Shown: one piece after another, positions 7,672-61,827 of the stretch
How the letters are laid out: each line of letters starts with the position of its first letter
Numbering within the stretch: the first letter of the stretch is position 1
NCBI GenBank assembly: GCA_015232405.1
Contig: JADFZS010000005.1
Span: forward strand, 1-64,000
Length of the DNA: 64,000 nucleotides
From: Magnetococcales bacterium
GTDB lineage: Bacteria > Pseudomonadota > Magnetococcia > Magnetococcales > JADFYX01
Direction: 5' to 3'
Made by a program: the position numbers and the translations under genes
Notes under the pieces: generated by a model
The model's database searches: none
The model's input: only the letters and a program-made list of their open reading frames with translations
What the model was told of the DNA's origin: nothing

Positions 7672-7674
7672 TAG

Positions 7675-9510: not shown

Positions 9511-9546
9511 GACTTTTTAAAAAACTAACTATCGGTAAAAACATCC

Positions 9547-11972: not shown

Positions 11973-13492
11973 ACGATCCTAAAAAGCGTGCCGATGTCTG
12001 TCTGATTTTGGAAGGAACCTACCCCTATGTTGCTGGGGGTGTATCAAGTTGGGTGCGGGATCTTATCTTTGCCCAAAAGACCCTGACTTTTCACCTTGTC
12101 ATGATACTACCACCAGGGGCAGATAGAACCCCGCGTTATGATATTCCTGATAATGTCATAGGCAAAACTGAGATTGTCGTTGGTGATCTTCCAAAAGGTA
12201 ATTTTTTTGTTAAGGGGGGAAAAAAGCTTTTGCAAGGGTTGGAGTCTCCTCTTCAACGGTTAACTGTTGGAGGTGGCTTAACTGAAATCCAGGAGCTTGT
12301 TGAGGTACTTGCCCCATTTAAGGGTAAAGTTGGAAGGGAGCTTCTGCTCAACAGTGAAGAGGCGTGGCAGATGTTGCAACGCATGTACTATGCAGCCCAC
12401 TCAAAAAGCTCTTTTCTCGACTATTTTTGGACCTGGAGAGCGCTGCTGGGTGGTGTCTACTCCATCCTGCTGGCCCCTACACCCAAAGCGTCTGTATATC
12501 ATGCCATCTCAACCGGGTATGCCGGGTTGTTTCTTGCAAAAAGCAGACTGACAACAGGTCGTCCAGGTCTGTTGACGGAACATGGAATCTATACCAATGA
12601 AAGGCGTATCGAGATAACCATGGCTGATTGGTTGGCTGAAGATAAGGTGATAAATAGCCTTCATATTGACAAACGACAGCCTGATTTACGAGATATCTGG
12701 GTGGAGACTTTTGTCACCTTTTCCAGAGCCTGTTATGCCTGTTGTGAGCAGATTATCACACTATATGAGGGTAATCAGGAATTTCAATTAGAAGATGGAG
12801 CAGACCCTGATAAGCTACGGGTGATACCAAACGGTATAGACTATGATCATTATGCCAAAGTTGAACGTGAACAAAATAAACACCCCCCAACTATCGCCTT
12901 GATTGGTCGTGTTGTTCCCATCAAGGATATAAAAACATACATACGAGCTGTATACCATCTCCATAAAACCATACCAAATCTAATAGCCTATGTTTGTGGA
13001 CCTACCGATGAAGACCCAATATATCATGGGGAATGTCTTGAGATGGTAAGCCATCTGGATTTAACCAAGACCCTTATTTTTACAGGACGGGTGAACTTGG
13101 TGGAATATCTAGGGCAAATAGATGTTATGGTTTTAACCAGCATAAGTGAAGCCCAGCCCTTGGTTATTCTGGAAGCTGGAGCTGCTGGAGTTCCTAGTGT
13201 TGCCACCGATGTCGGTTCATGCCGGGAGATGATTGAAGGTAATCATCAGGAGGACCCACCCCTTGGCAGAGCTGGTGAAATAACCCCCTTATCAGACCCG
13301 GTTGGTGTAGCAGATGCTTTGGCAAAAATGTTGAATGACCCGGACTATCTAAAGCAGTGTGCAGAAACAATCAAGCAACGGGTTCGTCGTTATTATCATA
13401 AATCAGATTTAAATCGCACCTACCTGGATTTATATAACCAACATGTTGCCATGGGAGATCTTCTTCTTCCTGCAGATAACGGGGTGGGCTGA
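11969..13492 (+). CDS. pelF: PelF-type GT4 family glycosyltransferase
   Basis: ADVCLILEGTYPYVAGGVSSWV N-terminus, RVIPNGID, IGRVVPIKDIKTYIRA, EAQPLVILEAGAAGVPSVATDVGSC. Confidence 0.95.
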   Translation: MNDPKKRADVCLILEGTYPYVAGGVSSWVRDLIFAQKTLTFHLVMILPPGADRTPRYDIPDNVIGKTEIVVGDLPKGNFFVKGGKKLLQGLESPLQRLTVGGGLTEIQELVEVLAPFKGKVGRELLLNSEEAWQMLQRMYYAAHSKSSFLDYFWTWRALLGGVYSILLAPTPKASVYHAISTGYAGLFLAKSRLTTGRPGLLTEHGIYTNERRIEITMADWLAEDKVINSLHIDKRQPDLRDIWVETFVTFSRACYACCEQIITLYEGNQEFQLEDGADPDKLRVIPNGIDYDHYAKVEREQNKHPPTIALIGRVVPIKDIKTYIRAVYHLHKTIPNLIAYVCGPTDEDPIYHGECLEMVSHLDLTKTLIFTGRVNLVEYLGQIDVMVLTSISEAQPLVILEAGAAGVPSVATDVGSCREMIEGNHQEDPPLGRAGEITPLSDPVGVADALAKMLNDPDYLKQCAETIKQRVRRYYHKSDLNRTYLDLYNQHVAMGDLLLPADNGVG

Positions 13493-14871
13493 TGGCTGGC
13501 ATCGGTTTTATATTAAGAAAATTGGCCGGACGAGATGACCTTACAGGAATTGTTGCAGGGTATCTGTTTTCGGCAATAATCTCTTCTGGACCCTGGCTGT
13601 TTACCATCTTCTCTTTAGGAGCGTTGGTTCCCATAGTATCTCAGTTTATCTCCTCCGAAGATCTAGCAGGATTTCGTTTGATCATCATCTACAATTTTTC
13701 CTTCTCCTTGGTTTTAACTGGTCCACTGTTTATGGTGGCCACCCGTTTTTTAGCAGACCGGATATTTTTAAAAGAGTCTGATAAAGCAATAGGGCTACTT
13801 CTAGGAGGGTTGTTAACGGTATTTATTATCTGCACCCCATTTGCATGGTGGCTCTATTTTAGTTTCAGCGAGATGAGCCTGGATATAAGGTTTGCCGCCT
13901 TTGTTAACTTTATGGTGATATCTGCAATATGGTTTGTCTCCATTTTTCTTTCGGCTCTAAAGGCGTATGTCTCTATCTCTGGAGCTTTTGCTGGGGGGTT
14001 GTTGCTCTCTTTTGTTGCAGCCCTGGCTTTGGCCCCGCAATTTTCGTTAGCCGGTCTTTTTTGGGGCTTCAGCCTGGGTTTGGCTGCCATTCTCTTTTTT
14101 TTGGTTGCCAGAATTTTTTCAGAGTTTCCCCACGATATCAAAAAACCATTTGAGTTTTTTGGCTATTTTAAAAAATATTGGGATCTTGCCCTCAATGGGT
14201 TGATTTTCAATCTGGCGGCATGGGTTGATAAATGGGTCATGTGGAGCGCACCAGAGGCAGAGCAGGGCAGTTTTGGGCTTATATCCTACCCTAACTATGA
14301 CTCAGCAATGTTTGTGGCTTATCTCTCTATTATTCCCTCAATGGCCTTTTTTGTCTTCAACGTAGAGACAAGATTTTTTGAAAAATATTTACTCTATTAT
14401 CGTGATATCCAGAAACATGCCACCTTTGACCGTATCCAGCAGAACCACAATTCACTTCTCAAAGCTATTCTGGATGGAGCCAGAAACCTCACTGTTCTAC
14501 AAGGTATCATCACCTTTACAATTATAATGGTTGCTCCCAGCATTCTAGAGCTTTTAGGGGTTAATCTTCTACAGTTGGGGATATTTCGTTTTGGGGCTTT
14601 AGGGGTGTTTTTCCAGGTTATGATTTTATATCTGCTGATATTTTTAACATATTTTGATGCAAGACGTTATGTGCTTAGTATCAATATATTCTTCTTGATC
14701 AGCAACTTTCTTTTTTCCTGGTACTTTCTCAACAAGGGGTTCCCCTATTATGGCCAAGGTTACGCCATGGCAGCAGCCTTGACCTTCGGGGTTACTGTCG
14801 TTGTGTCATTCAGCTATTTTAAAAGACTGCCCTATATGACCTTCATTGCCCATAACGCATCAGTTAGTTGA
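13492..14871 (+). CDS. pelG: PelG-type polytopic polysaccharide transporter
   Basis: MAGIGFILRKLAGRDDLTGIVAGYLFSAIISSGPWL N-terminus typical of PelG; about 12 TM segments. Confidence 0.95.
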   Translation: MAGIGFILRKLAGRDDLTGIVAGYLFSAIISSGPWLFTIFSLGALVPIVSQFISSEDLAGFRLIIIYNFSFSLVLTGPLFMVATRFLADRIFLKESDKAIGLLLGGLLTVFIICTPFAWWLYFSFSEMSLDIRFAAFVNFMVISAIWFVSIFLSALKAYVSISGAFAGGLLLSFVAALALAPQFSLAGLFWGFSLGLAAILFFLVARIFSEFPHDIKKPFEFFGYFKKYWDLALNGLIFNLAAWVDKWVMWSAPEAEQGSFGLISYPNYDSAMFVAYLSIIPSMAFFVFNVETRFFEKYLLYYRDIQKHATFDRIQQNHNSLLKAILDGARNLTVLQGIITFTIIMVAPSILELLGVNLLQLGIFRFGALGVFFQVMILYLLIFLTYFDARRYVLSINIFFLISNFLFSWYFLNKGFPYYGQGYAMAAALTFGVTVVVSFSYFKRLPYMTFIAHNASVS

Positions 14872-40615: not shown

Positions 40616-42301
40616 CTAGTCGTTCTTTACATCTCGCCAGAGAACAACTCGGTTACGACCACTGCGTTTTCCTTCATATAGTGCTTCATCTGCCAATTTT
40701 AGTAGTTCTTCAGGTGATTTAGCTCCTGCTTCCGGGTGGGCTGAAACACCTATGCTAATGGTTACTTTTAAGCCGTCAACATTCATGTTCTCAACTCGTT
40801 GGCGAAATTTTTCTGCAACCAGATAAGCGCCCTCAGAATTGGTATTAGTTAAAATTATGCAAAACTCTTCACCACCATAACGGCAGGGAAAATCTGGTTT
40901 TCTGAAATGGCTTATAGCTTCACTTCCAAGTCTGGCTAGTACTTTATCCCCAAGGTCATGTCCGTGGGTATCATTAAATTTTTTGAAATGGTCAACATCA
41001 AAAAATATTAGTGACAGGTCTTGGTTATAGCGTATTGATCGAGAAAACTCCTTGTTTAGAATATCTTCCATGCCTCTGCGGTTGAATATTCCTGTTAACT
41101 TATCTTTAAAAGACATCTCTCTTAATTGATCTTCTAGCTGTTTCTGCTCTGTAACGTCCCTGATCATTGCCGCAGAACCAATTTTTTTATTCTGTCTATC
41201 GAATATTGTCTCGGCATGAAACTGTATTACTAGATGGTTATAGACCAAGGAATCAGGCATGTTCTTGCCATTTGTTTCCAGATAAGCGGTGACATAGTTA
41301 GGGTCATCTATGATTTGGTCAAAACCATCTGCGATAAGTTTATCAGAAGATTTGTTTAAAAGTCTTTCGGCGGCAGGGTTGACAAGAACCACCTCATCAT
41401 CTTCATTTGTGACAATAATTCCCTCTCTGGCACTAAGGATAATAGTTGATAATTTGTTGCGCTCTTTATTTAAACCATCGTGGCTTTTTTTGATTTCAGA
41501 GCTCATCATGTTGAATTGTCGAGCCATTACGCTCAATTCATCATGTTTGGTAACAGGGATGGATTGTCCATAATTACCATTTGAAACATTGCTAATAGCT
41601 GATGTAATGGACTGAACAGGTTTAACAACTATAACCCGGATTAGTACATATATTCCCGTCAAGCTCAATATAACTGATAAGAAAAGAATCTTTAGAGCTT
41701 TGCTGCGAGTATCCATTATAGCATTTTGTACAGATTCCAAAGATGTAGTTAATTTTAGTACACCACGTATTTTATCATAGGCTCCATGACATCTACGGCA
41801 CTTTTTTTCGTTTGGAATTGGAGTGAGAAATGTAAGGGTTTCTACATCTGAATTATCAAGTTTTGAGAAGTAAGAGATAGTTTTTTTTGAAGAAATGACC
41901 TCTTTTAAAAGGGGGTCATCCTTATCTAAGACACGTTTGAAAGATTCAACATCCCGGGGTAAAAACTCCTCTTCTCCGAGATTATTATTAACTTCAGTAA
42001 TTGTTTGGTTATCTTGAAAAGCTTCAGAGCCATCGTTGCGGATAATATGAAAGTCTAAAATAAGTTTTCCTTCTACAAGGTTTTCTTCAAAGTCTTTAGC
42101 AATTTCAGCCGTACCAGACAACATAATAGACTGTAAACCACGGGATACATAATCAGTCAAATTATCCATGTTTTGTCTGTGGTTATCAAGAATAGTTTTC
42201 TCTTGAAACTTAGTATAAAAAACCATCAATCCTACAAGATTGAAAAGAGTGACAACTCCCACAATAACCAGAATTTTCTGGCCTAAACTGTTATTAAACA
42301 T
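40616..42301 (-). CDS. Diguanylate cyclase with periplasmic DUF3365/Tll0287-like CxxCH domain, HAMP, PAS
   Basis: CRRCHGAYDKIRGVLKLTTSLE, HAMP, PAS, FRKPDFPCRYGGEEF (I-site plus GGEEF). Confidence 0.92.
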   Translation of the reverse strand: MFNNSLGQKILVIVGVVTLFNLVGLMVFYTKFQEKTILDNHRQNMDNLTDYVSRGLQSIMLSGTAEIAKDFEENLVEGKLILDFHIIRNDGSEAFQDNQTITEVNNNLGEEEFLPRDVESFKRVLDKDDPLLKEVISSKKTISYFSKLDNSDVETLTFLTPIPNEKKCRRCHGAYDKIRGVLKLTTSLESVQNAIMDTRSKALKILFLSVILSLTGIYVLIRVIVVKPVQSITSAISNVSNGNYGQSIPVTKHDELSVMARQFNMMSSEIKKSHDGLNKERNKLSTIILSAREGIIVTNEDDEVVLVNPAAERLLNKSSDKLIADGFDQIIDDPNYVTAYLETNGKNMPDSLVYNHLVIQFHAETIFDRQNKKIGSAAMIRDVTEQKQLEDQLREMSFKDKLTGIFNRRGMEDILNKEFSRSIRYNQDLSLIFFDVDHFKKFNDTHGHDLGDKVLARLGSEAISHFRKPDFPCRYGGEEFCIILTNTNSEGAYLVAEKFRQRVENMNVDGLKVTISIGVSAHPEAGAKSPEELLKLADEALYEGKRSGRNRVVLWRDVKND

Positions 42302-44359: not shown

Positions 44360-46036
44360 TTATGAGTCTTTGCCATCATCTTGGTAAAAACGAATTTGGT
44401 TGCGTCCTGCTCTTTTGGCTTGATACAAGGCCTCATCAGCTTTTTTCAACATATCTTCAGGTGAAGTTCCCATATTAGGGTATATAGAAATACCTATACT
44501 GACAGTAACATTAAGACCATCCACATCCATCTCTTCAACTTTTTGCCTGAACCGTTCTGCTGCTTTTTCACAACCAGGAAACCCAGTGCTAGGCATTATC
44601 ACGCAAAACTCTTCCCCGCCATACCTACATGAGTGGTCTATATCACGGAAATGGTCGCACATTAATGAGCCAATGGATTGCAGTACCTTGTCACCCTGGT
44701 CATGACCATATTCATCATTAAATTTTTTAAAATGATCTACATCGAAAAACAGGAGAGCCAGTTGTAGATTATAACGTTTAGCTCTTTGAAACTCATCATT
44801 TAGAGCTTCATCAAACCAGCGGCGGTTGTATAGTTGGGTAAGACCGTCTGTATTTGATAGTTTTCTGAGTTTTTGTTCCAGGTTTTTCTCTTGGGTAATA
44901 TCTCTAATTAGGGCAGCAGAGCCAACTGTAGCATTTTCGTTGGTTTTGATCGTTGATATATTGATATTGAGTATTCGATTGTTGTAGACAACTGTTGGTG
45001 GAACATCATTTTGTTTTATATCTTGGAGAGCTGTAATATAATCTTGATCATCCAGAAAGTTCATAAACCCCTTTTTAGTAATTTCGCTGCTGTTTTTACC
45101 TAAAAGTCTTTCAGCTGCAGGGTTGACCAATACTATTTCGCCACCGCTATTTGTGACAATTATACCCTCTTTTGCACTGAGAATAATGGTAGTTAACTTA
45201 TCTCCCTCATTTTGTAGTTTTTGTAGAGTATTGAATAACTCTTTCCCCATGGTATTAAATGATCTTGCCATATCTGACAATTCATCATTACCGTTTACTT
45301 TAAGCTGTTGATGATAATCACCACCGGCCACATTAGCCATGGCAATAGTGATTTTGTTTATTGGTTTTACTACAGTTAGATTAATGAGGATGATAATGGA
45401 GGCACCAACAATAGTCAAAGCAACAATAAGTATGAGATATCCATTGCGTTTTGATGTAGCAATATCTTCCCTTGCCATTTCAAGAGAGGTGGTTAAACGA
45501 ATAATTCCTCGTACTTTTTCTCCTGCGCCATGGCACTTTCTACAGCCTTTCTCAGCTTTAATTGGGGCCAATATTGTTAATATATTTTCTCCTGATGTTG
45601 GGATGGTCTCATAGCTGGTAATAGCTTTACCAAGCTCAATTACCTTGAGTAATTCAGGGGTGTCTTGAGGCAATACCTGGTTTATAGTCTCTTTTTCTCT
45701 GGGTAAAAATTCCTCTTCATCTAAGCGAATGTTCACCTCTTCGATGGTTTCATTATCAAGGAAAGCCTCTTTTCCACTTTTTCGCATAATTAGGAAACTT
45801 TTTATATTTTTGGTATGTTTGATGTGGTTGGCATATGATTTGGCAATGTCAGCATCACCAGAAAGCATGATTGCTTCTAAACCTTCGTTAACAATACCAG
45901 TAAGAATGAGTGCATCACGCTCATTCTGTGCCATGATATTTTCTTCTTGCCACTGCAAATGTTGGTTTGTAATCCATACCAAGCCAATTAATATCACTAT
46001 ACCCACGAGTATAAGAATACGGTGTCCAATTTTCAT
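44360..46036 (-). CDS. Diguanylate cyclase with periplasmic DUF3365/Tll0287-like CxxCH domain, HAMP, PAS (paralog of 40616-42301)
   Basis: CRKCHGAGEKVRGIIRLTTSLE, HAMP, PAS, FRDIDHSCRYGGEEF. ORF opens at 46048 (TTG); ATG 46036 preferred. Confidence 0.92.
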   Translation of the reverse strand: MKIGHRILILVGIVILIGLVWITNQHLQWQEENIMAQNERDALILTGIVNEGLEAIMLSGDADIAKSYANHIKHTKNIKSFLIMRKSGKEAFLDNETIEEVNIRLDEEEFLPREKETINQVLPQDTPELLKVIELGKAITSYETIPTSGENILTILAPIKAEKGCRKCHGAGEKVRGIIRLTTSLEMAREDIATSKRNGYLILIVALTIVGASIIILINLTVVKPINKITIAMANVAGGDYHQQLKVNGNDELSDMARSFNTMGKELFNTLQKLQNEGDKLTTIILSAKEGIIVTNSGGEIVLVNPAAERLLGKNSSEITKKGFMNFLDDQDYITALQDIKQNDVPPTVVYNNRILNINISTIKTNENATVGSAALIRDITQEKNLEQKLRKLSNTDGLTQLYNRRWFDEALNDEFQRAKRYNLQLALLFFDVDHFKKFNDEYGHDQGDKVLQSIGSLMCDHFRDIDHSCRYGGEEFCVIMPSTGFPGCEKAAERFRQKVEEMDVDGLNVTVSIGISIYPNMGTSPEDMLKKADEALYQAKRAGRNQIRFYQDDGKDS

Positions 46037-46094
46037 TAAATGCAGCAATCCTTGATTTATTGTACTACAGACAAAACTGTGATTTTCTAGTCAT

Positions 46095-46120: not shown

Positions 46121-46309
46121 TCCATCAATTCCCATAAGTGGCATAATATCATCTAGAAGAGATGTAAAACAATATACATTTCCATTTAAAGTGGTTAACA
46201 GTATACATAGTTAATTATGGTTACTATCTTGCTCGTAAAAATCTATGATGGACAAAGCTTGCACTACTTTCAAGCCATTTATACCTAATGAAACGGGGTA
46301 AAACAAATT

Positions 46310-46879
46310 ATGGGATCTAATGCTGTAGAGCGGAACAGACGAACAAATTCGTCAGCCTTTATGATAAAAAATCTCCAGCGTGTGGGAAAGGCAGCTCTAA
46401 TTGTCAGTCTGATATTAAGTGTATGTATAATTCTGGCTATATATTATTTAGAAGGTAACCAAGGCGAAAACTATATAGATGTCCTACGTTCCTTGGCGTT
46501 AACTAGAAGTCAGTTAAAACCTGTATTGCTGATGTCTGGTTTGGTGTTGGTTATCTTAACCGGAGTTGTAACATGGCTGATAGCACAGTATAGTACCAAG
46601 AGGGTTACAGGTATTCTTCACCATTTTACCATCTGTTTGCAAAAACAGGTGCAAGATGGTCCCACTCCTTTTAAAAATCAAATGCCAAGTGATATCAGAA
46701 TGGATGAACATGCTCGTTTGGTTGGTGGTGTACACCGTTTGCAATTTCACTATGATGCCATGAGTGAATTAGTAGACTTGGCAGAGGTGCAACTTGAACT
46801 TTCCAAACCTGATTTGGGAGGTGGTTTGACAAAAACTATTAAGCAACTTCGGGAGTTGGATGCGAGTGTCAAACTTTAA
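46310..46879 (+). CDS. Membrane protein with two TM helices and HAMP/coiled-coil-like tail
   Basis: Two hydrophobic segments flanking a short periplasmic loop, cytoplasmic helical tail; overlaps next gene by 20 nt. Confidence 0.75.
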   Translation: MGSNAVERNRRTNSSAFMIKNLQRVGKAALIVSLILSVCIILAIYYLEGNQGENYIDVLRSLALTRSQLKPVLLMSGLVLVILTGVVTWLIAQYSTKRVTGILHHFTICLQKQVQDGPTPFKNQMPSDIRMDEHARLVGGVHRLQFHYDAMSELVDLAEVQLELSKPDLGGGLTKTIKQLRELDASVKL

Positions 46880-47642
46880 TATCATAATTATTTTTTGTAT
46901 TGCTGTTGGTGGTCTATTTCTCGGTTTAGATGGTAAAGGAACAGATGGTGGGCATTTGGCATCCAGTAGTTGTAACGGCTGTCATGTTGCCGAAAAAGTT
47001 GATACAAACAACGCCTCTGTTCTTGTTGCTGCTCAGGAAAGATTGTGTGGTGATTGTCATGCTAAAGCGATCAAGATGAGCCACCCTTCCGGTTTTACTC
47101 CAAACCATGCACTACCCACAGAGTTTCCACTTGATTGGAAAGGGGATCTTACATGCAGTTCATGTCATTTAATCCATGACCATAAACCCGGCCTGCTGCG
47201 TAGCCATTCAACTGGATTAGATTTTTGTCTGCAGTGTCATCCCAAACAGTTTTTTGAAGATATGTCTGATGGGGGAGTATCAGTGGCTGGTACAGGTCAC
47301 CTTGATGCTTCTGAAGATATTGAAGGTGTTGAATTGGACTCCTTTTCCCTACAGTGTATGGGGTGTCATGGTGAACAAGGTGATAGTAAAAGGGTTGATG
47401 TAAGTGCCAGAGGCCTGTTACGACACACAAGTAGCTCGATGAACCACCCAATTGGAGTCTCATATAATCAGTCTGCTACCTTTGGTGGGTATCGAGCTTT
47501 GACCCAACTCCCTGAGTCGATTGTTCTGCCTAATGGCAAACTTTCTTGTGTTTCATGTCATTATGGATATAGCAAAAAGCATGGCGGTCTTGTTATAGCC
47601 AATAATTATTCAAATCTTTGCCAAACCTGTCATGATTTATAG
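46860..47642 (+). CDS. Multiheme c-type cytochrome (seven CxxCH motifs)
   Basis: Signal peptide; CNGCH, CGDCH, CSSCH, CLQCH, CMGCH, CVSCH, CQTCH. Confidence 0.94.
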   Translation: MRVSNFNIIIIFCIAVGGLFLGLDGKGTDGGHLASSSCNGCHVAEKVDTNNASVLVAAQERLCGDCHAKAIKMSHPSGFTPNHALPTEFPLDWKGDLTCSSCHLIHDHKPGLLRSHSTGLDFCLQCHPKQFFEDMSDGGVSVAGTGHLDASEDIEGVELDSFSLQCMGCHGEQGDSKRVDVSARGLLRHTSSSMNHPIGVSYNQSATFGGYRALTQLPESIVLPNGKLSCVSCHYGYSKKHGGLVIANNYSNLCQTCHDL

Positions 47643-47656
47643 GAGGTATTGGTATT

Positions 47657-48283
47657 GTGACTAAAAATAAAAAAAGAACAATTCATGAAGGTAGGTCAAT
47701 TTTAGCCATACCATTTACGAGCAAGATTCAACGATATTTTGATTTTTATATTCAAAAACGTTTGCTTTTTGCTTTGGTTTTAATGGAAGTTTCGCTAGTC
47801 GTTGCAAGTGTAGTCTATCTATATTTCCGCTTTCATAACATTATTAATGAGAGTTTTTACCGTATTCACCAACTTCCTCATTCTGTGCAAGCCATATTTT
47901 TGGAGGAGACAGGAAAGGTTATTTTATATCTTCTAGCTATCAATCTACTGGCCTTGCTTATTGCAGATCGCTGGTGGGTCAGGTATATCAGAAGCGTTCT
48001 AAGCTCTTTTGGTATGCTAGCTGATAAAATGGCTGACTTGGATCTAAGAATCGATCAGGAGCTAGAAGCCAAGCATGAATCGTTGGATATGATGCTGAAC
48101 TGGAGAAAAGGGGAGAGGGAACGAGCAAAAAATATTCGTACTTTTATAAGCCAGCTTGAATCTCCAGAGTTACTTACAGACGAAACAGCAAGACAAAAGA
48201 TGCTCCTGTCCTTAAAAGGGTTAAGGGCTACTCTTCCTCCTTACAGCCGACGTTATATTGGTCGTTTGGACAAATCGAAATAA
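47657..48283 (+). CDS. Membrane protein with two TM helices and HAMP/coiled-coil-like tail
   Basis: GTG start 15 nt after the cytochrome; two TM segments; charged helical C-terminus. Confidence 0.75.
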   Translation: MTKNKKRTIHEGRSILAIPFTSKIQRYFDFYIQKRLLFALVLMEVSLVVASVVYLYFRFHNIINESFYRIHQLPHSVQAIFLEETGKVILYLLAINLLALLIADRWWVRYIRSVLSSFGMLADKMADLDLRIDQELEAKHESLDMMLNWRKGERERAKNIRTFISQLESPELLTDETARQKMLLSLKGLRATLPPYSRRYIGRLDKSK

Positions 48284-48431: not shown

Positions 48432-49808
48432 TTATTCTGCTTCTTTTGGTTTTGTAGGGAATATTCTGGCTACACCACCAAAACTTCCAACCCACATACT
48501 CTTGTCATTTGCAAATGCCATAGAAAAGACATTGTTTGAAAATAGGCCATCGGAAGTGGTCAAGATGTTAAATCCAGTTGCCTTTTTCTGTGCTAAACCT
48601 TTGCTAGTACCTACCCATAAAGAGTTTTGTTCATCTTGATGCAACATGAAAATAAAATTGGATGGTAGACCATCATCCATTGTGAAATTAGTCCATTTTT
48701 TGCCATCAAACTTTGAAAGACCAGCACCCCATGTTCCACACCAGACATTGCCATCTTTGTCCACTTCCATGGATATGATGTAATTTGGGTTGTAAGCTGT
48801 GGTTACATTGGCTAAACCCTGTTCGGATTTTTGCCGTGCGTGGTGGCTGGATGTCTTGCCAGGGTCTTGCATGCTGTCATTTTGTTTTTTAGCCATTTCA
48901 TATCCAATTCCAAGGCCATCATCATGGGTCCATTTGCTCCATTTATCATTTACAAAACGACCAAGACCACCTTCTGTTGCTAGCCAAACTTCACCATTTT
49001 TACCCTCTGCCAGACCATAAACCCAATCATTTGGTAAACCACCTTTTGTACTTTCAACAGTGAAGGTCTCCCATTTTGATCTATCATCTAGGTTACCGCC
49101 TTTAATCCGGTTGGCTCCAGACCAGGTTGCGATCCAAACATCACCATTTTTCATCTCTTGGACATCATAGATAAAAGCATCACCAAGCCCATCAGGTATA
49201 TTGTAGGCTTTCCAGCTTTTTTTCTCAGTGTCGTATACTGAAAGTCCACCACCATAAGTACCTACTGTAATCTTGTTTTTACCAAGACGACCGATGTGGA
49301 ATACACCATTAGCTACCAAACTGCCGTTACGAACATCAAATAGTTTATAGTCTTCGGTTTTAATGTCATAACGGATAACTCCCCCGGATGTTCCTACCCA
49401 GACAAAAGTATCATCGACAAGCATATCTTTGACATTACGATTGCCAACCCGGAAATGGTTGAATTTAACATTGCTCTTCTTAACAACAGGTGCTTGGGCA
49501 GCAGCTTCTGGGCGCCCTGGGTGTCCACCCTGATTCCTGACTCCAGGTTTTAATGGTCCTACACCTGCAGCTGCCATTCTTTGAAGCGCAGCTGCATCAG
49601 ATTGTGAAGATTGTGGTTGTTGAGGTCGTTGTATAGGCTGAATTGGCTGTGCAGGCTGTACAGGTTTTCTTGCAACTTGCTGAACCTGTTGAGGAGGTGC
49701 AGTTTCTTTACCCTTTTTCATTCCTATGAAGAAGGCTCCTGTTACCATTCCTAACACCAATACAGCACCAACGATGGTGAGAATTAGAGGTTTTTTGCTA
49801 GAATTCAA
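48432..49808 (-). CDS. Membrane-anchored seven-motif beta-propeller (two-component-regulator-propeller type)
   Basis: N-terminal TM anchor, Pro/Gln-rich linker, seven WxGT-like blades (VWVGTSGGVIRYD ... MWVGSFGGVARI). TTG at 49808 preceded by AAGGAG is a better start than ORF start 49886. Confidence 0.85.
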   Translation of the reverse strand: MNSSKKPLILTIVGAVLVLGMVTGAFFIGMKKGKETAPPQQVQQVARKPVQPAQPIQPIQRPQQPQSSQSDAAALQRMAAAGVGPLKPGVRNQGGHPGRPEAAAQAPVVKKSNVKFNHFRVGNRNVKDMLVDDTFVWVGTSGGVIRYDIKTEDYKLFDVRNGSLVANGVFHIGRLGKNKITVGTYGGGLSVYDTEKKSWKAYNIPDGLGDAFIYDVQEMKNGDVWIATWSGANRIKGGNLDDRSKWETFTVESTKGGLPNDWVYGLAEGKNGEVWLATEGGLGRFVNDKWSKWTHDDGLGIGYEMAKKQNDSMQDPGKTSSHHARQKSEQGLANVTTAYNPNYIISMEVDKDGNVWCGTWGAGLSKFDGKKWTNFTMDDGLPSNFIFMLHQDEQNSLWVGTSKGLAQKKATGFNILTTSDGLFSNNVFSMAFANDKSMWVGSFGGVARIFPTKPKEAE

Positions 49809-49824
49809 TGTGCTCTCCTTGGAT

Positions 49825-50946
49825 TTATTTTTTGACAGTACCAATACGGAATATCTTTCCGTTGGTTCCTGCCCAGATCTCACCATCAGATGTGGCGGCT
49901 AAAGTATAAATGTTAAGTCCCTGCATAGTTTGATTTTCTGAAAAAACTGTCCAACTACCATTTCTAAAGAGGGCTAGTCCGTTATTTGTTCCTGCCCACA
50001 GAACGCCATATTTATCTCTTGCTAAACTATATACGACATTCCCTGGAAGTCCCTCTCTTGTGCTATAAGATTGCCATTTTTTACCATCAAAATGACTGAC
50101 TCCTCCACCCCATGTTCCCGCCCAGAGAGAGTCGTCGTGATCCAACTCAAGGGAGAAAACATAGTTAGGATTATATGTCTGGCTACCACTATTTAGTATA
50201 CCAAGATCATGCCTGTTACGGGTACCAAGACCGGTATTGGTACTAGCTGGTAGTTGAGCAGTATTTGGTGCACCCAAGCCATCTTTGTGTTCCCACTCTT
50301 TCCAGGTTTTGCCATCATAAAGTGATATTCCACCTTCTGTTCCAAACCAAATTCTTTGCTTGGAATCAATTTCGATGGCATAAACCCACTCATTGATAAG
50401 CTCTTTTACGTAGGTTTCCATCTTGTCACTATCAAGGTCGAGGCGGTTAACTCCTGCCCAGGTTCCAATCCATAAGCTTCCATCTGGGTGGCTTGCAAAA
50501 GAGTAGACCCAATAATCGGCAAGACCATGCATGGGAAAATAGGTTTTCCATTTATCGCCTTTGAGACTTGACACTCCTCCAGCGTTTGTTCCAAACCATA
50601 TGCTATCCTGACTATCTTTCCCTATAGCAAAAACATATTCATTAGCTAGACCATCTTCACGGGTAAAGGTTCTCCGAACCCCAAAGCTATCCAGGTCGAT
50701 TTCATGAACACCTATTGAAGTCCCAACCCATAGTGCCCTTTCTTCCTCATCCACAAAAGTGGAACGAACATAGACATCTTTACCAACTTCATAACTATCC
50801 AAAACAGAATATTTATTTAATTGAGATGTGGATGATGTCTGTGCTGTTGAAGCGGCATTTTGTTTTGAGGTTCCAGCTTTATCTGAATTGTCGGAACAGC
50901 CGGAAATCATTAAAATTAAAAAAAATAACAGAAACTTGCGCCACAT
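49825..50946 (-). CDS. Lipoprotein seven-motif beta-propeller, paralog of 48432-49808
   Basis: Lipobox LMISGCSD; seven WxGT blades (LWVGTSIGVHEID ... IWAGTNGKIFRI). Confidence 0.87.
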   Translation of the reverse strand: MWRKFLLFFLILMISGCSDNSDKAGTSKQNAASTAQTSSTSQLNKYSVLDSYEVGKDVYVRSTFVDEEERALWVGTSIGVHEIDLDSFGVRRTFTREDGLANEYVFAIGKDSQDSIWFGTNAGGVSSLKGDKWKTYFPMHGLADYWVYSFASHPDGSLWIGTWAGVNRLDLDSDKMETYVKELINEWVYAIEIDSKQRIWFGTEGGISLYDGKTWKEWEHKDGLGAPNTAQLPASTNTGLGTRNRHDLGILNSGSQTYNPNYVFSLELDHDDSLWAGTWGGGVSHFDGKKWQSYSTREGLPGNVVYSLARDKYGVLWAGTNNGLALFRNGSWTVFSENQTMQGLNIYTLAATSDGEIWAGTNGKIFRIGTVKK

Positions 50947-51012: not shown

Positions 51013-51663
51013 CTATGGTTCTTTTTGCATTTTGACAATATTTTTAATTGCCTGATCGATTTCAGCTGCTTTTTTAGGATCTTTTCTTAACCCTAGTCGT
51101 CCTAAACGATAGGAACTGGACAGTTCAAACATGGCTGGAGTATAGCTTTTATCTGCCGCTTTTTGGAACCATGACAGAGCCTTTTTGTTATCAATTGGTA
51201 ATCCTAACTCACCCTTGGAATAGATAAAACCCATGGCTGTCATCGCTGGTGGGTGGTTGTTTTTAGCAGCAAGGGATATCCATTTAAAGGCTTTTTTATT
51301 ATCAATTTTTCCAGCGTTACCACTAGCAATCATCTGTCCCAAACCCAGAGCGCCAGCCATACTACCCCCATTGGCAGCTTTTTTATACCAAGCCAATGCA
51401 GTTTTGTTATCTTCTGCTTTATCATAGATATATGCTAACAAAACCATTGCTGGTTTGTAATCTGCCTTGGCAGCACTACCCAAATAATCAATTGCAGTTA
51501 CCAGATCATCCCGTTGGTAAGCCTTGCTTCCTTTTTCATAATCGCTCTTGGGGTCTGCCATGCCAGTAGTTGGCAGGCTAAATAAAATACTTAAAAAACA
51601 CAAAGCCAAAAGCAAAGATTTCCAGTTACCAAAGGACATCTTTGTATAATTTATTGTTTTCAT
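51013..51663 (-). CDS. Sel1-repeat periplasmic protein
   Basis: Signal peptide; repeats such as AMVLLAYIYDKAEDNKTALAWYKKAANGGSMAGALGLGQM; GGAGGG ribosome-binding site. Confidence 0.9.
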   Translation of the reverse strand: MKTINYTKMSFGNWKSLLLALCFLSILFSLPTTGMADPKSDYEKGSKAYQRDDLVTAIDYLGSAAKADYKPAMVLLAYIYDKAEDNKTALAWYKKAANGGSMAGALGLGQMIASGNAGKIDNKKAFKWISLAAKNNHPPAMTAMGFIYSKGELGLPIDNKKALSWFQKAADKSYTPAMFELSSSYRLGRLGLRKDPKKAAEIDQAIKNIVKMQKEP

Positions 51664-51711
51664 TAAACCCTCCTCACATTTTCAACTGTGATTTTTTAAA
51701 ACAGCTTTTCA

Positions 51712-53100
51712 TCAGTCACTAAATAAATTAGGTAGATTTGCCTGTTCAAGCTTACGATATAGGCTAGATAGACCTATACCTAATGAGCTGGCTGCTACCT
51801 TTCTATCACCGTCTGCCTTTTCTATAGTATCCAAGATTACCTTTATCTCATAATCTCTAATCTTGTCACGGAGAGTTTCTCCAGATTCAGGAATGTTGAT
51901 TCCTGAAATTGATGTAGAAACTTTTGCTGCGATATTCTGTGGTAGATCATTCAAGGTAATGACACCATCTTCAGCTAGAATCAAGGCTCTCTCAATTACA
52001 TTTTCCAATTCACGGATATTTCCCGGCCAATCATGCTTTTGCATTGCCGCTTCAGCATCAGGATCAATTGCAAAAGGGCTGTTTGTACCAGCCTTTGTTG
52101 CTCGTTGCTCCAGGAAATATCGAATGAGTAATGGAACATCTTCTGGACGTTCCCTAAGAGGGGGAATCGGAATGTTAAATACATTGAGACGGAAAAAAAG
52201 ATCTTCCCTGAAGGTTCCGGCAGCAACCATGTCCTCTAGTTTGCGGTTTGTTGCCGAAATAATTCTAGTATCAACGTTTCTAAACTGTTCACTTCCAACC
52301 GGGCGTATTTTATTTTCTTCCAACACATGCAGAAGCTTAACTTGTAGATTTAGTGGTAACTCTCCAATTTCATCAAGAAATAGGGTGCCTTTATCAGCCT
52401 CTTGAAAAAGCCCTTTTTTAGCTTTATCCGCCCCGGTAAACGCCCCTTTTACGTGTCCAAAAAACTCACTTTCCAGTAGATTTTCCGGTATCGAACCACA
52501 GTTGACAGGTATGAAAAGTCCCTCTTTTCTTTGGCTGTTTTTATGGATTTGTCTAGCTACCACACCTTTACCTGTACCACTGCCACCAGAGATAAAGACA
52601 GTAAAATCTGTTGTTGCAACCTTGCGAATAAGACGTTCCACCTGGGTCATGCCTGGAGAGATCAAGCGACATTTTCCCTCTTCCTCTTTTTGTACCATCT
52701 CTTTCAAAGTTCGGTTTTGTGCTTTAAGACCGATAAAGCTGCTCACCTGCTCAAGGCGATGAAGAATATCTTCCCGTCGTAATGGTTTGGTGAGATAATC
52801 AAAAGCACCTGCTTTCATGGCTTTTACGGCGGTATCCACAGAGGCATAAGCAGTCATCATCAAAAAGACAACCTCATAGCCCCTCTCTTTAGACTGTTTA
52901 ACCAGTTCAATGCCATCCATTTCTGGCATGTTAATATCGGATATTACAAGGTCAAAATCATCTTTTTCCAGTTTGAAAAGTGCCTCAACTCCATCCTTTG
53001 CTGAATCTGCGGTATAATCAGCTTTTTTTAGAGTGGCTACCAATATCTGTCTAATTGCAGGCTCATCATCAACTACAAGAATATTCAGTGATTTTCTCAA
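51712..53100 (-). CDS. NtrC-family sigma54-dependent response regulator
   Basis: REC (LVISDINMPEMDG), AAA+ with GGSGTGKGVVAR and GAFTGA, Fis-type HTH C-terminus. Confidence 0.97.
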   Translation of the reverse strand: MRKSLNILVVDDEPAIRQILVATLKKADYTADSAKDGVEALFKLEKDDFDLVISDINMPEMDGIELVKQSKERGYEVVFLMMTAYASVDTAVKAMKAGAFDYLTKPLRREDILHRLEQVSSFIGLKAQNRTLKEMVQKEEEGKCRLISPGMTQVERLIRKVATTDFTVFISGGSGTGKGVVARQIHKNSQRKEGLFIPVNCGSIPENLLESEFFGHVKGAFTGADKAKKGLFQEADKGTLFLDEIGELPLNLQVKLLHVLEENKIRPVGSEQFRNVDTRIISATNRKLEDMVAAGTFREDLFFRLNVFNIPIPPLRERPEDVPLLIRYFLEQRATKAGTNSPFAIDPDAEAAMQKHDWPGNIRELENVIERALILAEDGVITLNDLPQNIAAKVSTSISGINIPESGETLRDKIRDYEIKVILDTIEKADGDRKVAASSLGIGLSSLYRKLEQANLPNLFSD

Positions 53101-53101
53101 A

Positions 53102-55519
53102 TCAAATTTCCTTAAGATTGCTGTTTGTTAAAGGTAACACAATATCGACGGTACTTCCTTTCCCAGAGGTTGATTCAATTTCGATTGTACCATCATGTTT
53201 ATCAATAATGGAATAACAAAGAGAAAGTCCAAGCCCAGTTCCTTTCCCAGCTGGTTTTGTTGTAAAGAACGGATCCATAACTTTGTCCATGACATCACTT
53301 TCCATACCAATACCGTTGTCAGTAACTGAAATTTTTAAAAATGCATTAACATCATCACCTGTTTTAGAAGTTTTTATACTAACTTTTGGTGGACGATCAC
53401 CATTTTCTTCCATAGCATCTGCTGCATTAATGATCAGATTTATCAAAACCTGTCGTAGTTGAGAGGCGGAAGCAGAAATAGCAGGGAGAGTTCGATCAAG
53501 GTCCAGGGATAACTCAATGGTTTGTAAACGTTTGTCAAAACGCATCAGGTTGGATGTTTTCTCTGCCAAGCTATTAATATCAACAAGTTGAATCTCTTCT
53601 AATTGTGGTGCTGCCAGATCAGAAACATCACGTGTTATATTGGATATGCGGCTTATCTGTTCATCCATCATTTTCAGATAGCTTAATGTATCTTCATTTT
53701 CTTCACCCAAATTATCTTGAATTGCCTCTAGAAGACCTGAAATAGCTGCTGTTGGGTTGTTTATTTCGTGTAGAATTCCGGCAGCCAAAGTACCTAAAGA
53801 GGCCATTTTTTCGTGATGAGCTTGAGTTATTCTAGAAAGGGCAATATCTTTTTCAGCTTTTTTTCTTTCGCTGATATCATGTACTGTGGCTATGAAACGT
53901 ATATCACTGTTGGTCTGAATTTGGATGATACCCAGTTCAATTGGCAGAAGTGAACCATCTTTTTTACAGGCTAATCCTTCTCTCTTCAGGCTATCTCCAG
54001 GTTTGGTTGTGGCAAGAAATTTTTTAATATAATTATCATGGGCTGTACGGTGTGGCTCAGGAGTAAGGATTCTCACATTTTCCCCGATTAGCTCATCGGC
54101 AGTATACCCAAAAATTCTCACCATAGCTGGATTGCAAGACTCAATCTCGCCACTTTCTTTTACCCCAACAATACCTTCTCCTACACTATCCAAGATGGTT
54201 CTGAGGCGCATTTCACTGTTTTTCAGGGAGTCTTGAGCAGCTTTAAATTCAGTAATATCTTCTTTTACAGCGACATAGTGGGTTATCTTGCCATATTTAT
54301 TGCGAATTGGAGATATCGAAGCTGACTCCCAGAAGAGAGATCCATCTTTTCGCCGGTTATGAAACTCACCACGCCACTCTCTGCCACTGCTTATCTCATA
54401 CCACATTTTTTCATAAGTAACACTGTTGGCCTTTCCAGACTTTAAAATGCTGGGTTTTTTTCTAATTACCTCAGCTCGGCTGTAGCCTGTTACCTGAGAA
54501 AACTTGGGATTAACATATTCAATATTACCTTCAAGATCAGTAATCATCACCGTTGCAGGGCTTTGTTCAACAGCCTGGGTAAGCTTAAGAAGTTCCCCTT
54601 CAGCTTGTTGTCGTTCTTCGATCTCTGTCTTTAAAACCGCATTGGTAATTTTCAGGGTTTCGGTTCTATCTTCAACTTTTTGCTCAAGGGTTTCGTTGTA
54701 ATTACGGATTTTTTTAACCAGCGAAGTCAACTGTCCGTGTTGAATCTTTATTGTCGAGTCAGCTTTGCGGATAATGCTGAACAGGGCCAGATAGAGGATG
54801 GAAAAAAGTGAAATAACCCCAAATGCAATCTCTTTTTGAGATTGTTCGTGGTGGGATAGCTGGATTGTTATATCATAATAAAGTTCAAACACCCCCTGAA
54901 TTTTTCCGTTTTTTCTTAATGGGACATAGGTGGATATCATATCCCTATCTTCTACAACGCCATCAAAAGAGGGGAAACCATTGCGATGTACAAGGTTACT
55001 AACTGCTTTTCCTTGCATTGCTGATATAAACCCTACATTTTTACTTTGGTCTTCTCCTATCTGGCTTGATTGAGTTGAGTAAACGGTAATTCCATGTATG
55101 TTGAATATTTTGATTTTAACTACCATTAGATCCTGCATGAGTCGCCCAAGCATAGTATCAAGATATGGGATCATCATGGTGTGGTCTTTGATCTGATTTT
55201 TATCTAGTTCAACAGTTTTTTTGAGAAAGCCTCGCAAACTTGGCCAGAGGGAGTTTGAAAAAGCTTTGGTCATTGCGATGTTCTGATGTTCTCCCATTTG
55301 CATCAGAGAGCGTTCTTCAATCTTATTGAAATGAATATTGATTAATATACCTCCCAATAACATTGTAATTAGACTGGTTATTGAGAAATAGCGTAACAGT
55401 TGGAACAAATTGGCCTCCCCCTTGCTCAACAGTAGGTTGCTGTCTGCACCTTGTTGATCATCACTGGGTGTATATCCATTGGATTTATTTTTGAAGGACA
55501 ACATATCAAGGTTTTCCAA
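53102..55519 (-). CDS. Histidine kinase with periplasmic sensor and two PAS domains
   Basis: TM-periplasmic-TM, PAS x2, HEINNPTAAISG, GTGLGLSLC; 1 nt from the sigma54 activator gene. Confidence 0.95.
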   Translation of the reverse strand: MENLDMLSFKNKSNGYTPSDDQQGADSNLLLSKGEANLFQLLRYFSITSLITMLLGGILINIHFNKIEERSLMQMGEHQNIAMTKAFSNSLWPSLRGFLKKTVELDKNQIKDHTMMIPYLDTMLGRLMQDLMVVKIKIFNIHGITVYSTQSSQIGEDQSKNVGFISAMQGKAVSNLVHRNGFPSFDGVVEDRDMISTYVPLRKNGKIQGVFELYYDITIQLSHHEQSQKEIAFGVISLFSILYLALFSIIRKADSTIKIQHGQLTSLVKKIRNYNETLEQKVEDRTETLKITNAVLKTEIEERQQAEGELLKLTQAVEQSPATVMITDLEGNIEYVNPKFSQVTGYSRAEVIRKKPSILKSGKANSVTYEKMWYEISSGREWRGEFHNRRKDGSLFWESASISPIRNKYGKITHYVAVKEDITEFKAAQDSLKNSEMRLRTILDSVGEGIVGVKESGEIESCNPAMVRIFGYTADELIGENVRILTPEPHRTAHDNYIKKFLATTKPGDSLKREGLACKKDGSLLPIELGIIQIQTNSDIRFIATVHDISERKKAEKDIALSRITQAHHEKMASLGTLAAGILHEINNPTAAISGLLEAIQDNLGEENEDTLSYLKMMDEQISRISNITRDVSDLAAPQLEEIQLVDINSLAEKTSNLMRFDKRLQTIELSLDLDRTLPAISASASQLRQVLINLIINAADAMEENGDRPPKVSIKTSKTGDDVNAFLKISVTDNGIGMESDVMDKVMDPFFTTKPAGKGTGLGLSLCYSIIDKHDGTIEIESTSGKGSTVDIVLPLTNSNLKEI

Positions 55520-55527
55520 GAGGAAAA

Positions 55528-56166
55528 ATGTATTTTCTGAAAACAGTTAGCAAAATCATCTTTTTTACCATGCTTTTAGTTGCATGTGGTGGAGTTACAG
55601 AGGTTAAAGTGCAAAACCACGAAACTCCGCCATTAAAAGATAGACAAAACTACGAAGAACAGCAAATTAAACCAGAAAAAAAAGTTATACCAGGAATAAA
55701 CATGGCAGATACACCAGATCTTCACAACGATGGTATCCATGATCCAGACAATCCTGGTATAGAATTTCTGCAAAATCCGGCCCAATCCCTCAGTTCAATC
55801 CCATTAGGTCGCTGGGGAGAGGTTGACTGGATGCGAGCTTTAAATGAAAAAATCATTAATCCAAGAGCAGATATCAGTGGGGATGCCAAGATGCAGATAC
55901 TGGATTTGGATATTATAATGAAAGACACCAAATCTATGCCGTATGTACGTTTCCCCCATAAGTCTCATACACAATGGCTAGCTTGTAAGAATTGTCATCC
56001 TGATATTTTTATTGAAAAAATTGGTGCAAATAATATAAAAATGGATGATGTATTCAAAGGCCGTTTTTGTGGAGCCTGTCACGGCAGGGTTTCTTTTTCC
56101 AGTTATGTATGTCAACGTTGCCATAGCGTCCCTCATAAGGGTTCGCCTCCCCAATGGTGGGAATAA
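55528..56166 (+). CDS. c(7)-type triheme cytochrome lipoprotein
   Basis: Lipobox LLVACGG; FPHKSHTQWLACKNCH, CGACH, CQRCH. Confidence 0.9.
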   Translation: MYFLKTVSKIIFFTMLLVACGGVTEVKVQNHETPPLKDRQNYEEQQIKPEKKVIPGINMADTPDLHNDGIHDPDNPGIEFLQNPAQSLSSIPLGRWGEVDWMRALNEKIINPRADISGDAKMQILDLDIIMKDTKSMPYVRFPHKSHTQWLACKNCHPDIFIEKIGANNIKMDDVFKGRFCGACHGRVSFSSYVCQRCHSVPHKGSPPQWWE

Positions 56167-60466: not shown

Positions 60467-60943
60467 ATGAAAAATTTAAACAGTGTTTGTAAAAATATTA
60501 TGTTGGTTTTTGCTCTTATGCTGCTGCTTACTCCACCTGTATGGAGTGGGGATGATTATGTTCGCAACGCCAAAGAGATAGTCAAGGCTGCAGATTGGAA
60601 AACCATGAAGACTGTCACTATTGAGATTGACGAACATAGTTATGATCCAGAGAAGGTTGTGTTTAAAGTAGGTCAGCCTTATAAGCTGGAATTAAAAAAT
60701 GTCGGTGAGAAAAAACACTATTTTACAGCCCCTGAATTTTACCGTTCTATTGCGACCAGAAAAGTCCAAGCTAATAGGGATGGAGAGATTAAAGCTCCAT
60801 ATTTTCTAGCATTGGAAATGATGGCTAATGGTGGTCAACTGGATATCTATTTTGTTCCTGTGAAAAAAGGCTCCTACGTAGTCTATTGCACAATTGATGA
60901 TCATAGGCAAGAAGGTATGGAAGGGATGTTGGTTATCAATTGA
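60467..60943 (+). CDS. Periplasmic cupredoxin-like protein
   Basis: Signal peptide; EIDEHSYDPEKVVFKVGQPYKLELKNVGEKKHYF ... VVYCTIDDHRQEGMEGM (type I Cu-like H/C/H/M ligands). Confidence 0.88.
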   Translation: MKNLNSVCKNIMLVFALMLLLTPPVWSGDDYVRNAKEIVKAADWKTMKTVTIEIDEHSYDPEKVVFKVGQPYKLELKNVGEKKHYFTAPEFYRSIATRKVQANRDGEIKAPYFLALEMMANGGQLDIYFVPVKKGSYVVYCTIDDHRQEGMEGMLVIN

Positions 60944-61827
60944 CAACTATTATCCCAATCTTTCTAGCTCTTTTTTTCTCTTCTGGGGGTGCTGCTTGGG
61001 CTGAGAGTAAAGTTCCTGAACAGAATATAAATGTTGGAACTTTATCTGCAGCTCCGGTTGTGGATGGGAGCTTCGACGATTGGCCGCAACAAAAATCACA
61101 ATGGAGTCTTATTCCTGTTAAGCCAGCTCTACCCAATGATGATAAAAATCGAACTGGAGAGTTAGAGGTAGAGTTAATAGGAGGTGTTTTTAAGGATAAG
61201 ATCTATTTTGCTGTAAGTTGGCCAGACAGTTTTGCCGATGTTGACTACCGTCCCTGGAAGTGGCGTGGTAAAAAATATAAACGCACCCGAAAGCGTGATG
61301 ATATGTTTGCCCTGCGTTTTGACTTGGGTGGCGATTATGACTCCTGTATGCTGCCTGAAAAACCGAAGACATATAGTGTAGATATCTGGCTCTGGTCGGC
61401 TGGGCGTTCAAATCTTGCTGGTGTTGCAGAAGATAAATCACAGTTGATTTCTTCAGAATTTATTGAAAATGCAGCTGAATACACCTCCTCAGTGGGAGGG
61501 ATGGTTTATATCAAAAAAAAGAGTGACCCAGGAGACCCCGTATACAAAGTATCAAGACCAAAACGGAAAAAATTTAAAGGTAAAATACTGTCAGGTGTAG
61601 ATCTGAAGGGTGAGGGTTCTGGAGGTTTGGTAGATGTCTCTGCTAAAGGTATCTGGAAGGATGGGCGTTGGTTTGTGGAGTTTAGCAGAAAATTAAATAC
61701 TGATAGTTCAGATGATGTGATTTTTCCCAGCAAAGGGAACGTGATAGGAGCTATTGCAGTTTTTAACAAAGGTTGGGCTGAACATAAAAGTGTCTCTGGA
61801 GATTTGCGTTTTGTCTTTTCTGAGTAA
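60940..61827 (+). CDS. Ethylbenzene dehydrogenase gamma-like (EB_dh) haem-binding periplasmic protein
   Basis: TTG start overlapping the cupredoxin stop; signal peptide; PVVDGSFDDWPQ, IYFAVSWPDS, MFALRFDLGGDYDSCM, DIWLWSAGRSN. Confidence 0.72.
   Translation: MTTIIPIFLALFFSSGGAAWAESKVPEQNINVGTLSAAPVVDGSFDDWPQQKSQWSLIPVKPALPNDDKNRTGELEVELIGGVFKDKIYFAVSWPDSFADVDYRPWKWRGKKYKRTRKRDDMFALRFDLGGDYDSCMLPEKPKTYSVDIWLWSAGRSNLAGVAEDKSQLISSEFIENAAEYTSSVGGMVYIKKKSDPGDPVYKVSRPKRKKFKGKILSGVDLKGEGSGGLVDVSAKGIWKDGRWFVEFSRKLNTDSSDDVIFPSKGNVIGAIAVFNKGWAEHKSVSGDLRFVFSE

Follow-up and report, generated by a model that had tools for sequence, protein, structure and literature searches.

Uet (undecahaem electron transfer) is an extracellular electron transfer pathway, the gene set of which would carry electrons across the cell wall. 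The pathway (UetA-J) has been described in Ca. Tenderia electrophaga and Gallionellaceae (PMC10734462, PMC5371394). Its gene set was listed as a tetrahaem cytochrome (UetA), an isomerase (UetB), a porin (UetC), trihaem cytochromes (UetD, UetE and UetG), NHL proteins (UetH and UetI) and an undecahaem cytochrome (UetJ) (PMC10734462), and trihaem genes were reported together with a TPR gene and an undecahaem gene (PMC5371394). Among the partners of porin-cytochrome gene clusters, the inner-membrane proteins PCC3 and PCC4 contain five TM helices with HX13H pairs (PMC5566968).

Here we analysed a cassette of three genes, TM1-CYT7-TM2, in a stretch of 64,000 nucleotides (the window) from a Magnetococcales metagenome-assembled genome (G000; 5.86 Mb, 90% complete). 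As judged from its sequence, the cassette is none of the components named UetA-J. It probably represents a part of the Uet pathway at the inner membrane that has been overlooked.

Layout and conservation of the cassette

As shown in Table 1, a gene for a seven-CxxCH cytochrome lies between the genes of two similarly built membrane proteins, and the open reading frames and the hydropathy profiles confirmed this arrangement as first described. The initial annotation had also reported tight packing with a 20-nt overlap and a 15-nt gap. The three open reading frames and the overlap of 20 nt between TM1 and CYT7 (46860-46879, counted from the ATG of CYT7) were reproduced, while the gap between CYT7 and TM2 is 14 nt (47643-47656). 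A possible alternative start of CYT7 (GTG, 46866) would give an overlap of 14 nt, as in most relatives.

Table 1. Features of the cassette and of its neighbourhood in the window
Feature	Coordinates	Strand	Description
TM1	46310..46879	+	ORF; 189 aa, two-helix inner-membrane protein, HAMP-type tail, without output domain
CYT7	46860..47642	+	260 aa, periplasmic seven-haem c-type cytochrome; exactly 7 CxxCH; Paired_CXXCH_1
TM2	47657..48283	+	ORF, GTG start; 208 aa, two-helix inner-membrane protein, remote paralogue of TM1
TM1 degenerate HAMP (AS1-connector-AS2), residues ~96-150	46595..46759	+	From per-segment conservation and hhalign
TM2 degenerate HAMP, residues ~107-160	47975..48136	+	From the model and the deep profile; Pfam HAMP above cut-off in homologue L126
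Codon of TM2 H71	47867..47869	+	Tip of periplasmic hairpin; near-invariant, 59/61
Diguanylate cyclase	44360..46048	-	CxxCH-bearing periplasmic sensor (Mcp40H-20 type), HAMP, PAS, GGDEF; divergently transcribed from the cassette
Two Reg_prop beta-propeller envelope proteins	48432..50946	-	484 and 373 aa; recurrent cassette neighbours
Sel1-repeat protein, NtrC-type response regulator, sensor kinase	51013..55519	-	Relatives flank the cassette in L067, L085, L087 and L088
Three-haem cytochrome	55528..56166	+	Paralogue (44-45%) of two UetD/E/G-type cytochromes of the downstream Uet locus

The search for the same three-gene order in other genomes, which the initial annotation had proposed, found it conserved over several phyla, to an extent well above chance. 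Among 200 relatives, the TM1 and TM2 searches matched the same 15 Magnetococcales genomes of several families, with the two matches about 1.4 kb apart, and a seven-haem gene lay between them on the same strand in 15/15, usually with an overlap of 14 nt. A wider scan of named genomes with the CYT7 profile gave 118 loci, of which 80 were kept, from Magnetococcales, many beta- and gammaproteobacteria, Kiloniellaceae, Desulfobacterota-type bacteria, Nitrospirota and Nitrospinota. The complete cassette was present in 70 of these 80 loci (63 by profile and 7 by reading the downstream ORF). Two of the remaining ten were cut by contig ends, and eight had neither TM protein (L094, L105, L107, L108, L110-L112 and L125). 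Every locus with complete flanks therefore carried both membrane proteins or neither, which suggests that TM1 and TM2 are an obligate pair and that CYT7 is able to exist alone. A scan of genome contigs with the single TM2 sequence gave no match. The libraries searched describe no family for this module, in keeping with the earlier wording of an undescribed type. The cassette is also present in isolates, such as Sedimenticola hydrogenitrophicus, Noviherbaspirillum denitrificans, and Thalassotalea and Motiliproteus strains. In addition, a second seven-haem paralogue without TM1 and TM2 was observed in Magnetococcales nHA1bin2 (L094, 2932-3771), the genome of which has a full cassette elsewhere.

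The membrane proteins and the cytochrome

The hydropathy analysis gave hydrophobic segments at residues 22-50 and 68-96 of TM1 and at about 32-59 and 84-108 of TM2, and in both proteins the positive flanks face the cytoplasm. A HAMP-like tail and no output domain had been assigned to the two proteins initially. The assignment held through distant homologues and deep profiles, but it is unrecognisable from the two window sequences alone, which had no HAMP match in Pfam and, in single-sequence searches, nothing above the cut-off in Pfam or NCBIfam. Profile searches of PDB sequences also returned nothing for TM1 or TM2. The HAMP sequence is plain in Nitrospirota and Desulfobacterota homologues (e.g., L123 TM2, KISGPLYRIKKDLESIAAGDL...DEFKDFANELN), and the distant homologues L122 TM1 and L126 TM2 from these groups exceeded the Pfam HAMP cut-off. 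The deep TM1 and TM2 profiles were homologous to each other (E 9.5e-10), and each aligned over the HAMP of the diguanylate cyclases of the window and their relatives (hhalign, P about 7e-5). Deep profiles were needed, since profiles of Magnetococcales only detected neither the TM1-TM2 homology nor the HAMP.

In the AF2 model of TM2 (pLDDT 84.8), a helix (30-68) leads to the hairpin tip (69-76), a second helix (77-126), a linker and a third helix (141-167). The second helix is predicted to cross the membrane and continue into AS1. Overall, the model has the layout of a HAMP protein that lacks an output domain. The fold search with TM2 against the PDB gave no significant match. None of the TM1 and TM2 homologues read had an output domain, and their tails stop about 60 residues past the HAMP. 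The description of the two proteins as receptor halves was thus borne out in that they are of HAMP type and have no MA, kinase or GGDEF domain. These profile comparisons place TM1 and TM2, as remote paralogues, in a family of two-helix HAMP proteins that lack an output domain.

Per-segment conservation identified AS1 as the most conserved segment of TM1. Over several phyla, G101 of the TM1 motif ‘AGPL’ was invariant and Y55 was found in 60/62, and in TM2, besides H71, residues Q33 and D29 were near-invariant. In L081 and L082, H71 is replaced by K or Q, and the cytochrome of these two loci resembles that of L105, which has neither TM protein. These three are betaproteobacterial Uet-type loci with common changes in the C-terminus of the cytochrome, and together the replaced H71 and the missing TM genes look like a stepwise loss of the membrane pair. 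Among the aligned homologues, no conserved histidine was found in the membrane helices of TM1 or TM2, so electron transport across the membrane by the two proteins themselves is unlikely. Nor do they contain a motif for a redox cofactor or a demonstrated site for quinone.

For CYT7, the matches in Pfam and NCBIfam were to multihaem cytochromes, and the fold search against the PDB gave no significant match. All seven haem sites are conserved, the first one lying outside the called ORF in one or two members. Of the histidines outside the CxxCH motifs, H75, H106, H147 and H196 are conserved throughout, and H189, H241 and H32 are found in 62, 60 and 57 of the 69 aligned members, respectively. In most members there are thus seven conserved extra histidines for seven haems, which fits bis-His ligation and electron transfer. 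CYT7 probably functions in electron transfer and not in gas sensing. Moreover, in L105, L107 and L108 it was kept next to Uet-type genes in the absence of TM1 and TM2, and its role therefore appears to go with electron transfer.

Association with Uet and neighbouring genes

By searching the host genome for paired-CxxCH proteins, a Uet-type locus was located on the same contig, 22-35 kb downstream of the cassette (contig 70001-82729, minus strand), with 22 kb between the cassette and UetJ. Its order is an NHL gene cut by the contig end, a four-haem OmcE-like cytochrome, a PPIC isomerase, a 660-aa barrel-type protein, two three-haem cytochromes, two repeat-like proteins, another three-haem cytochrome, an NHL protein and an 11-haem cytochrome. 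From the predicted proteins, this gene set is a match to the listed Uet set (PMC10734462, PMC5371394), and it points to Uet-type electron exchange in Magnetococcales. After the Uet-type locus, this part of the contig (L183; C291, 64001-82729) encodes membrane proteins that are ResB-like and weakly COX1-like. Another contig of the genome (L184; C11, 34001-54000) encodes a 10-haem protein, an MtrB_PioB barrel (E 2e-105) and a 9-haem protein, an MtrAB/PioAB-type conduit. With this conduit beside Uet, the genome appears to encode two conduits for extracellular electron transfer.

Over samples of 399 Pseudomonadota and 198 Desulfobacterota, UetJ was present in 28/29 genomes with the cassette compared to 12/568 without it. 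The cassette and UetJ, the cassette only, UetJ only and neither were found in 16, 1, 7 and 375 Pseudomonadota genomes (Fisher p 3e-22) and in 12, 0, 5 and 181 Desulfobacterota genomes (p 1e-15; UetJ counted at E below 1e-100), and UetC-like genes were found in 14/15 cassette-bearing Magnetococcales compared to 5/33 cassette-free ones (p 3e-7), all p values referring to sampled genomes that are not phylogenetically independent. The lone Pseudomonadota genome with the cassette and without UetJ is 78% complete. The contrast in UetC recurred inside the Magnetococcales families f1, f5 and f13 and in the genus of the window (one of five genomes). Among further cassette genomes, 44/47 had a UetJ/UetA-type match, a few only to the tetrahaem-like part. 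No CYT7 was found in the UetJ-only genomes, seven of them in the Pseudomonadota sample, and therefore CYT7 is not essential for Uet.

The cassette and Uet are linked on the same contig within about 8-22 kb in G000, G020, G017, G031 and G319. In G361 they are about 2.5 Mb apart, and most Pseudomonadota cassettes lie outside the Uet operon. A porin profile built from Desulfobacterota and other proteobacteria had suggested that the cassette is mostly independent of Uet. This result was wrong, because UetC is too divergent for that profile, which missed even the UetC of the host genome. UetJ and a Magnetococcales UetC gave the opposite answer. These results indicated that the cassette is likely to have a role with Uet.

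Because the neighbourhoods come from a simple ORF picker, some neighbours are approximate; one cassette ORF each in L166 and L168 was missed by it and recovered by six-frame search. Two styles of neighbourhood were found. In Desulfobacterota and several beta- and gammaproteobacteria, the cassette is accompanied by multihaem cytochromes, NHL propellers and beta-barrel-type proteins. The cassette was found again in 11 further Desulfobacterota neighbourhoods; most of them place it within a cluster of multihaem genes, and several of these clusters also hold genes for a porin, an NHL propeller and an 11-haem protein. In the second style, seen in the window, in other Magnetococcales and in the four loci named in Table 1, it is accompanied by Reg_prop propellers with Sel1, NtrC and kinase genes.

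The window encodes two similar diguanylate cyclases whose periplasmic sensor carries one CxxCH (40616-42301 and 44360-46048). Genes related to the latter are found near the cassette in several Magnetococcales, which suggests haem-c redox sensing tied to c-di-GMP. A sigma54-like site (TGGTTACTATCTTGCT, about 46218-46233) lies 92 nt upstream of TM1 and scores above shuffles; upstream of the relatives, such sites were found in 6/71 at p<=0.05, which is about chance, and the site is not conserved. In L083, L088, L092, L097, L101 and L102, a gene for a bacteriohaemerythrin-like protein follows TM2 directly or lies nearby. As judged from sequence, a small cupredoxin-like protein between the cassette and the Uet locus is followed by a putative haem-binding protein with an ethylbenzene-dehydrogenase-type-like domain (60467-61827). 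As judged from its ORFs, the region 1791-14871 resembles a Pel exopolysaccharide operon in PelA-G order.

Proposed role and comparison with known systems

We propose, with a probability of about 0.5, that the cassette serves Uet bacteria as a dedicated redox module at the inner membrane, facing the periplasm, with CYT7 as the relay and the HAMP pair as its dock. TM1 and TM2 would form an obligate HAMP-type hetero-oligomer, and the tips of its periplasmic hairpins (Y68, R69 and H71 of TM2 and Y55 of TM1) would dock CYT7 on the inner membrane. CYT7 is predicted to be a chain of seven mainly bis-histidine haems which would relay and buffer electrons, and it may link the periplasmic side of Uet (the three- and four-haem cytochromes, the UetC porin and UetJ) with the inner-membrane respiratory or quinone pool; the direction and partners of this flow are those we infer. 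The HAMP helices would probably pack differently as CYT7 changes in occupancy or redox state and perhaps read out that state. The relay is proposed because of the haem count, the conserved histidines, the membership in Desulfobacterota clusters and the persistence of CYT7 without TM1 and TM2. Association with Uet is not a mechanism, and we infer both the electron flow and the signalling by the cassette. Against a relay module, HAMP is otherwise a signalling domain, and the conservation of AS1 in TM1 exceeds the needs of a plain anchor. The missing cofactor motif and quinone site of TM1 and TM2, the position outside the Uet operon in most Pseudomonadota, the UetJ genomes that have no CYT7 and the lack of a PDB fold match for TM2 or CYT7 also weigh against it.

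A second reading, which we regard as doubtful, is that of a split redox receptor. CYT7 would be a multi-haem reporter capping a TM1-TM2 HAMP receptor that signals to a separate cytoplasmic partner, such as the nearby NtrC/kinase pair, the haem-c diguanylate cyclase or another HAMP kinase, and so tunes expression or behaviour around extracellular electron transfer. The HAMP type and cytoplasmic tails of both proteins and the conserved AS1 are consistent with it, as are the recurrence of kinase-NtrC genes or CxxCH-sensor diguanylate cyclases as neighbours, the good sigma54-like site in the window and the frequent separation of the cassette from the Uet operon, which is common among regulators. 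However, no output domain was found in the homologues read and no constant signalling partner adjoins the cassette, the sigma54-like sites are not conserved, seven probably bis-His haems exceed the needs of a switch, and CYT7 is retained where both TM proteins were lost. It is rather unlikely that the cassette represents a receptor class not described before, in which two output-less HAMP proteins form a heteromer with a separate seven-haem cytochrome as sensory cap. If it did, the haem chain would let the cell sense directly the electron flow through its extracellular electron transfer chain, or the load on it.

A function in assembly or maturation appears improbable. The cassette would then act with NHL/Reg_prop propellers and the PPIase to help load haem into Uet cytochromes or OmcE-like filaments, or to help fold or export them. 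Beta-propellers do recur as neighbours and ccm-like (cytochrome c maturation) genes flank the cassette in L060, L064, L069, L099 and L109, but the latter are limited to one set of gammaproteobacterial loci, and the seven conserved haem sites and extra histidines point to electron transfer. An independent periplasmic redox module (e.g., for microaerobic respiration) that shares the habitat and not the function of Uet would agree with the physical separation of the two in many genomes and with the bacteriohaemerythrin-like genes adjoining TM2 in some Rhodocyclaceae loci, but it is improbable in view of the 28/29 association in two phyla and the linkage or cluster membership in many genomes.

The redox module of Uet bacteria that we favour differs from each of the nearest known systems. 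HAMP receptors (chemoreceptors, histidine kinases and diguanylate cyclases) share with TM1 and TM2 the two TM helices, the HAMP-type linker and the cytoplasmic helical tail. TM1 and TM2 differ in that they have no MA, kinase or cyclase domain and are two paralogues with a multihaem cytochrome gene between them. The quinol-cytochrome dehydrogenases NapC, NrfH and CymA resemble the proposed cassette as inner-membrane-associated multihaem cytochromes at the periplasmic face, whereas the cassette has its seven haems in a separate subunit and anchors without haem motifs. CYT7 was rejected as a NapC/NrfH protein, as it had no Pfam NapC match and only a partial, sub-threshold match to the NrfH model (28.8 of 134.2 bits). 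PCC3 and PCC4 are similar to TM1 and TM2 as conserved inner-membrane partners of porin-cytochrome gene clusters (PMC5566968), but TM1 and TM2 were rejected as members, having only two helices and no conserved TM histidine. The nanowire cytochrome OmcE (7tfs) has a paired-CxxCH stretch in common with CYT7 (E 1e-7); it has four haems and forms a filament, whereas CYT7 has seven haems and no significant fold match.

Uet itself is the genome-wide companion of the cassette. A locus with the published gene set is on the same contig and a Uet-type trihaem paralogue is inside the window, although the cassette is usually a separate operon. The Uet list contains only 3-, 4- and 11-haem cytochromes and neither a seven-haem cytochrome nor a two-helix HAMP protein (PMC10734462). 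The seven-haem/HAMP cassette was likewise absent from the published Uet component lists and literature found, a coverage outside of which lies the Uet-defining paper (PMC9599434). The cassette was recognised by genome-wide co-occurrence and not by gene order, and its presence in isolates makes it testable. The component lists found leave the connection between the Uet conduit and the inner membrane unexplained, and the cassette is a conserved candidate for this link. It also hints that a single complex may combine HAMP-type signalling with electron transfer.
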